A stretch of 59,758 nt of DNA from a virus. Shown here piece by piece: positions 51,511 to 51,577 of this stretch (position 1 is the stretch's first letter; each line of letters begins with the position of its first letter). Position numbers and translations under genes: made by a program. A model generated the notes under the pieces. That model had not been told where the DNA came from. It saw nothing but the letters and a program-made list of their open reading frames with translations, and ran no database searches. The stretch covers positions 1 through 59,758 of IMG/VR virus record IMGVR_UViG_3300033550_000005; one strand, given 5' to 3'.

Positions 51511-51577
51511 TAGCGGGGAACAAAACGCAACGGGGAGATTTCACCAAAAGAAGTACCCGTTACAAACGCCACCGCTA
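51511..51577 (-). ncRNA. Short Y-RNA-like unit 3, no tRNA domain
   Basis: A 67-base unit closed by TAGCGG/CCGCTA (extendable by G-T pairs). It has the same frame as the other two: TGGCG, exactly 11 bases, TACTTCT on the 5' strand and TGTTCC on the 3' strand. The middle helix is longer (GTAACGGG with CCCGTTGC) and is capped by a pyrimidine-containing loop TACTTCTTTTGGTGAAATCTC in place of a tRNA-like domain. It thus resembles the simple stem-loop form of animal Y RNAs and could be a minimal Ro60 ligand. Confidence 0.65.

Follow-up and report, generated by a model that had tools for sequence, protein, structure and literature searches.

A short segment on the minus strand of the viral DNA analysed here (a stretch of 59,758 nucleotides, the window) is confirmed by comparative sequence evidence as a Y RNA that lacks a tRNA-like domain, and as a genuine short version of two tRNA-bearing Y RNAs encoded beside it. 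This element, unit 3, stands first in a minus-strand series that continues with a long hairpin, unit 2, another long hairpin, unit 1, an open reading frame of 256 amino acids, an AAA ATPase and Ro60 (Table 1). The most probable reading, to which a probability of about 0.65 can be given, is that unit 3 docks on the phage Ro60 and gates this protein without tethering a partner to it.

Table 1. Unit 3 and its surroundings in the window, in minus-strand order.
Feature	Position	Strand	Basis or remark
Unit 3, short Y RNA without tRNA-like domain, 67 nt	51511..51577	-	sole match of covariance model R1; fold
Unit 3 closing helix, 5' strand UAGCGG	51572..51577	-	pairs with 51511-51516; 6/6 pairs change on both sides in 33 relatives
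Unit 3 foot, 5' conserved element TGGCG-N11-TACTTCT	51549..51571	-	exact; also in units 1 and 2; conserved in alignment A2
Unit 3 helix 2, 5' strand UGUAACGGG	51556..51564	-	9 bp with 51526-51534 in MFE fold; 8/8 modelled pairs covary in relatives
Unit 3 loop hairpin UUC-UUUUGGU-GAA, 3 bp, 7-nt loop, anticodon-arm-like	about 51540..51552	-	comparative
Unit 3 helix 2, 3' strand CCCGUUGCG	51526..51534	-	pairs with 51556-51564; MFE fold and covariation
Unit 3 foot, 3' conserved element TGTTCC	51517..51522	-	exact; conserved in alignment A2
Unit 3 closing helix, 3' strand CCGCUA	51511..51516	-	pairs with 51572-51577
Long hairpin between units 3 and 2, 14-bp near-perfect stem	51394..51490	-	fold
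Unit 2, Y RNA with tRNA-like head	51257..51393	-	Rfam YrlA RF02553, E=2.4e-8, 43.8 bits; parsed as circularly permuted tRNA
Unit 2 anticodon-arm-like hairpin UUCUC-CUGCUAA-GAGGG	51350..51366	-	5/5 pairs; tRNA register, 5 nt before T stem
Unit 2 T arm GCUGG-UUCGAAU-CCAGC	51328..51344	-	Rfam YrlA match and permuted-tRNA parse
Unit 2 acceptor hairpin (UUCG-capped, 7 bp), then UA and D arm	51290..51327	-	Rfam YrlA match and permuted-tRNA parse
Long hairpin between units 2 and 1	51131..51234	-	fold
Unit 1, Y RNA with tRNA-like head	50989..51128	-	foot elements exact; T-acceptor-D segment a weak YrlA match, E=0.014, 23.9 bits
256-aa open reading frame without family	50190-50957		between Y RNAs and Ro60
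AAA ATPase	48675-50153		PHROG 10440, E=5e-205, unknown function
Ro60 (TROVE and vWA) gene, 508 aa, presumed partner	47071..48594	-	Pfam TROVE, PHROG 850

An earlier note on this DNA had held that unit 3 keeps TGGCG-N11-TACTTCT, TGTTCC and a closing helix, and all three are borne out. The first of these elements occurs exactly three times in the window, always on the minus strand (51100-51122, 51363-51385 and 51549-51571), and is restricted to units 1, 2 and 3; 0.25 occurrences would be expected by chance with up to one mismatch. With the spacing of unit 3 (TGGCG-N11-TACTTCT-N26-TGTTCC), there is one perfect match in the window, at 51517-51571, where 0.07 are expected with up to three mismatches. 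The ends pair as UAGCGG and CCGCUA, and the fold beats those of shuffled sequences (z = -3.3). A covariance model, R1, was made from 33 short units of other phages with the window left out. Its only match in the 59.8 kb window is 51577-51511 on the minus strand (68.7 bits, E=6.4e-20), and this independent match, together with the motif expectations, rules out a chance origin of unit 3. The fold is conserved: in the 33 short units all 14 pairs of helices 1 and 2 have compensatory changes, with a covariation score of 0.689 compared to 0.224 in shuffled and at most 0.178 in slid versions.

The same association recurs in relatives, which were gathered with the window Ro60 and comprise 43 viral loci, 9 named phage loci and 80 loci from bacterial or archaeal genomes. 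A pattern scan found the same foot many times beside Ro60, and model R1 has 126 matches in 48 phage loci and 127 in the 80 bacterial and archaeal loci, all of them on the Ro60 strand. Linkage was also examined independently of the protein, by searching 2.9 million viral contigs with a motif derived from the short form alone. This returned 16 contigs, and all 16 encode Ro60; in 15 of them it lies on the same strand in the stretch examined, mostly less than 1 kb away, and in the sixteenth it is found elsewhere on the contig. Nucleotide BLAST against phages returned mainly ordinary tRNAs, because units 2 and 1 match them in their tRNA-like parts. The virus has no close sequenced DNA relative.

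The presumed protein partner matches Pfam TROVE (E=7.3e-15, 55.5 bits) and PHROG 850, an RNA-binding protein (E=1e-34), while its vWA_Ro60 score of 20 bits is below the cut-off of 27.7 for that family. Its MIDAS motif DxSxS (D343/S345/S347) is invariant. The family profile A1 matches the solved Ro60 chains 9l5y, 1yvp and 2nvo, and the invariant His178 of the window protein aligns with Xenopus Ro60 His187, which we take to be a Y RNA contact. The strict same-strand linkage to Ro60, together with the analogy to YrlA, suggests that the foot of unit 3 is Ro60-binding. The TROVE protein in PDB entries 9l5y and 9kop is nearer to the phage family (E=1.7e-43) than are the Ro60 proteins of vertebrates or Deinococcus; a paper citing either entry was not found in the literature searched.

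Around the units, the long hairpins that separate them are, judging from predicted folds, possible processing signals or sites, or further RNAs. Convincing copies of the AAA ATPase and of the 256-aa open reading frame were not found near Ro60 in relatives, and the two are thus not counted as parts of the system. This arrangement could be read differently, with unit 3 as a cis-acting leader or processing structure of an operon mRNA (for the open reading frame at 50957, the AAA ATPase and Ro60), perhaps autoregulated by Ro60, and no separate small RNA. Such a reading would account for the position of the units 5' of downstream genes on the same strand, for the hairpins between them, and for the failure to find a sigma-70-like promoter upstream of unit 3. 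However, each unit is a closed stem with paired ends that is repeated as a separate element, tRNA-like heads are known as free RNAs in bacteria, and in some relatives units also lie downstream of Ro60 (L009 at 7334-7658, L048 at 4399), so that we consider a role purely in cis improbable. One further Y RNA-like unit 3' of Ro60, at L009:7652-7890, has a very long head of about 200 nt.

Y RNAs that combine a Ro60 foot with a tRNA-like head are already known from bacteria and phages, among them YrlA and phage Y RNAs (PMC7765460). The units described here adjoin Ro60, have a long stem of paired ends with a conserved internal loop and, as a set, include a tRNA-like domain (units 1 and 2), as is characteristic of Ro60-associated Y RNAs. 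They resemble YrlA (RF02553) in their position beside a Ro60 homologue, in the stem formed by the paired 5' and 3' ends and, for units 1 and 2, in the order T arm, acceptor hairpin, D arm. At the gathering threshold, Rfam detects no Y RNA in the window, and at a permissive threshold it detects units 2 and 1 only, whose 43.8 and 23.9 bits miss the curated YrlA cut-off of 69 bits. In contrast to YrlA, unit 3 has neither a tRNA-like domain nor a YrlA match. Because that domain (D, T and acceptor arms) is absent, unit 3 is best called a Y RNA, and not a YrlA. A second difference is the anticodon arm of many units here; YrlA is described in the literature (PMC8394870) with D, T and acceptor arms only.

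Comparable systems exist elsewhere. As in the Salmonella rsr-yrlBA-rtcBA operon, with YrlB and YrlA, more than one Y RNA accompanies a single Ro60 gene (PMC7790460), although no RtcB or RtcA was recognised among the neighbouring window proteins scanned. The Y RNA of the Deinococcus radiodurans RYPER complex (Rsr-Y RNA-PNPase) is likewise a Ro60-bound modular RNA with a foot and an effector-recruiting head (PMC4726728, PMC8058203); unit 3 differs in having no effector head. Bacterial Y RNAs are said to be non-homologous with the vertebrate clades (PMC4726728). Metazoan Y RNAs are also short stem-loops in which the lower stem binds Ro60 and the upper domains vary, but they have no sequence relation to the window units.

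Simple and tRNA-bearing forms side by side, as the earlier note had described, are found in the window, where units 1 and 2 have both a T arm and a D arm and unit 3 has neither. Chen et al. reportedly found in 2014 that over 250 bacteria and phages have Y RNAs next to Ro60, with at least one per species bearing a tRNA domain, which would imply tRNA-less partners. When related phages were examined for presence or absence of the head, both forms were present; Xanthomonas phage Olaya, for example, has a short unit at L045:2494-2559. By a strict count, in which tRNA-bearing units have a T arm and simple units have a head of at most 40 nt without one, the phage loci contain 34 tRNA-bearing, 27 simple and 28 intermediate units (one chance match in the window was dropped) and the bacterial loci 121, 16 and 52, respectively; these regular-expression counts are conservative and depend on the thresholds. 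Intermediate heads often have one hairpin more, and some are in fact tRNA-like but escaped the strict pattern. Simple and tRNA-bearing units co-occur in 10/34 phage loci and 14/72 bacterial loci, and the arrangement in the window is therefore a common one.

That the RNA is modular, with a fixed foot and an exchangeable head, had also been proposed, and sequence comparison now supports it well. In Bradyrhizobium (L076-L131), the unit at a single orthologous position 415-513 nt upstream of Ro60 has a near-constant foot, while the head varies by species: it is tRNA-like with 92-95 nt in 8 loci, T-arm-bearing (the T arm only) with 72-73 nt in 10, 56 nt long in one, and simple with 30-31 nt in three. 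Different heads also occur within a single locus, L058, where a tRNA-bearing and a simple unit have 84% of the foot in common. An idea of this kind is not new, since modularity has already been described for bacterial Y RNAs (PMC8394870); in the part of the Y RNA literature searched, neither an anticodon arm nor a varying head on a constant foot was found described. The tRNA-like head in Bradyrhizobium looks cut in the D loop (GGTAGAGC ... TAGCTCAG), which would be a different permutation; 3/8 such heads are called as tRNA by ARAGORN after un-permuting, which is suggestive. In a phage Y RNA head at L032:2062-2195, D arm, anticodon arm and T arm appear by eye to stand in ordinary, unpermuted order, and ARAGORN did not call this head.

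The earlier note also saw in unit 3 a tRNA-like domain replaced by a simple stem-loop. The absence of the domain holds, as there is no T arm or D arm, but the hairpin is shared with many tRNA-bearing units and is no substitute; it is better to say that the tRNA body is missing and the hairpin stays. A hairpin common to simple units and tRNA heads is what a deletion product would show, and truncated heads of intermediate length exist in Bradyrhizobium, so that unit 3 might be thought a decaying, functionless remnant of a tRNA-bearing Y RNA whose head was deleted. Yet its foot is perfect, its helices keep pairing, and the short class forms a discrete head-length mode that recurs across many phages and bacteria. 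A degenerate pseudogene is judged unlikely because of the covariation, and we regard decay as very improbable.

The reading of unit 3 as a Y RNA that gates without tethering draws on work in other organisms. In Deinococcus, Rsr is tethered to PNPase by the Y RNA, which also gates the entry of substrates (PMC4726728), and more generally the Y RNA gates Ro60 while its head tethers an effector, PNPase in Deinococcus (PMC4726728, PMC8394870, PMC8058203). In the phage, the paired ends and internal loop (GUGGCG ... UUACUUC ... UUGUUCC) would form a docking foot for the Ro60 ring, topped by only a small hairpin. Unit 3 would presumably come from the minus-strand region that also gives rise to units 2 and 1, and would bind the same surface of Ro60. 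Without a head, it may occupy and gate the protein and shield it from misfolded RNA, and would recruit no partner of the head of units 1 and 2, be it PNPase or tRNA-recognising enzymes. Gating without tethering is an extrapolation to simple Y RNAs, and such a division of labour would give the phage Ro60 particles of two or more head types. The missing sigma-70-like promoter and the lack of a YrlA match for unit 3 weigh against this reading.

The hairpin shared by both forms deserves closer attention. In tRNA-bearing units, a hairpin that starts in UUACUUC occupies the place of an anticodon arm, one variable loop before the T stem. Once near-identical heads had been removed, 43 non-redundant units had their T loop at the usual distance, and 36 of these have at least four of five arm pairs. 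The loops of these 36 have U33 in 33, a purine at position 37 in 34 and A at position 38 in 32, and include CUGUUAA, CUGCUAA and AUGCUAA; the variable loop is canonical, mostly AGGTC or TGGTC, and the inner pairs alternate among CG, GC, TA and AT. Pairing cells amount to 75% at the fixed register against 35-62% in slid ones. Perfect 5-bp arms are present in 14/29 phage units (1.0 expected) and 40/89 bacterial units (2.6 expected), with expectations from shuffles that keep base composition only and ignore shared ancestry. Since the hairpin is in register as an anticodon arm, with a 7-nt loop, U33 and R37, many heads appear to be complete, circularly permuted tRNAs, comprising in order the acceptor 5' strand, D arm, anticodon arm, variable loop, T arm and acceptor 3' strand. 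The permutation point lies between positions 26 and 27, and window unit 2 belongs to this group with a GCU loop. In some units, unit 2 among them, the arm has a competitor, an enclosing stem of the kind drawn for YrlA. ARAGORN calls on un-permuted heads were rejected as stand-alone evidence: the program called 21/25 heads, yet still 15/25 after the anticodon arm had been shuffled. It is too lenient, and the argument is accordingly built on register and loop statistics.

Short units often keep an arm-like hairpin. Among 43 simple units, from which near-identical heads were likewise removed, a 7-nt loop closed by at least three pairs occurs in 24, where 4.7 are expected from the same composition-only shuffles, and U33 and R37 occur together in 16 (0.6 expected). 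The copy in unit 3 is weak, with three pairs and a C-A mismatch outside, and the stretch is paired otherwise in the MFE fold.

It is tempting to speculate that unit 3 displays an anticodon stem-loop on a Ro60 foot and, with its tRNA-bearing neighbours, acts as a decoy or lure for anticodon nucleases or other tRNA-acting enzymes, the phage thereby surviving tRNA-cleaving defences. More broadly, one common foot would show graded tRNA parts (a complete permuted tRNA with anticodon arm, a partial one, or only an arm-like hairpin as in unit 3), and the readily swapped heads might serve as a set of such lures during infection. The excess of 7-nt loops with U33 and R37 in simple units and the anticodon arm in 36 of the 43 in-register heads fit this idea, and the YrlA tRNA-like domain has been proposed as a competitive inhibitor of an anticodon nuclease (Hughes et al. 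2020, PMC7790460). However, many other hairpins also have U-turn 7-nt loops, whose role could lie in folding or in contact with Ro60, the loop 'anticodons' vary widely, the hairpin of unit 3 itself is the weak one described above, and the control shuffles preserve base composition only. The decoy role is thus a tentative proposal, which we hold to be rather doubtful.

Should the short RNA bind the phage Ro60, units 1 to 3 would make a natural test of the tRNA-like head, with the same foot and the same protein, with and without the head. The comparison points to Y RNA heads being exchanged as modules, many of them with an anticodon arm. If so, the purpose of tRNA mimicry in Y RNAs could be put to the test, with a part in resisting tRNA-cleaving defences among the possibilities. 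Units that Rfam misses would be recovered by a covariance model for short Y RNAs.

Phage loci can be far richer in units than the window. At L043:1093-5142 and L004:4489-5987, a single Ro60 gene is preceded by an array of roughly ten Y RNA units, whose heads are of many types. Several public phage 'tRNA' annotations beside Ro60 also appear to be Y RNAs. The GenBank tRNAs (Gln, Thr, Ser) at L046:2173-2240 (CcrColossus), L051:2822-2889 (10KY502B) and L053:2757-2831 (Kikimora) coincide with Y RNA units and are probably mis-annotated; ARAGORN calls on the Y RNA units of L045, L051 and L053 resemble the GenBank tRNA annotations.
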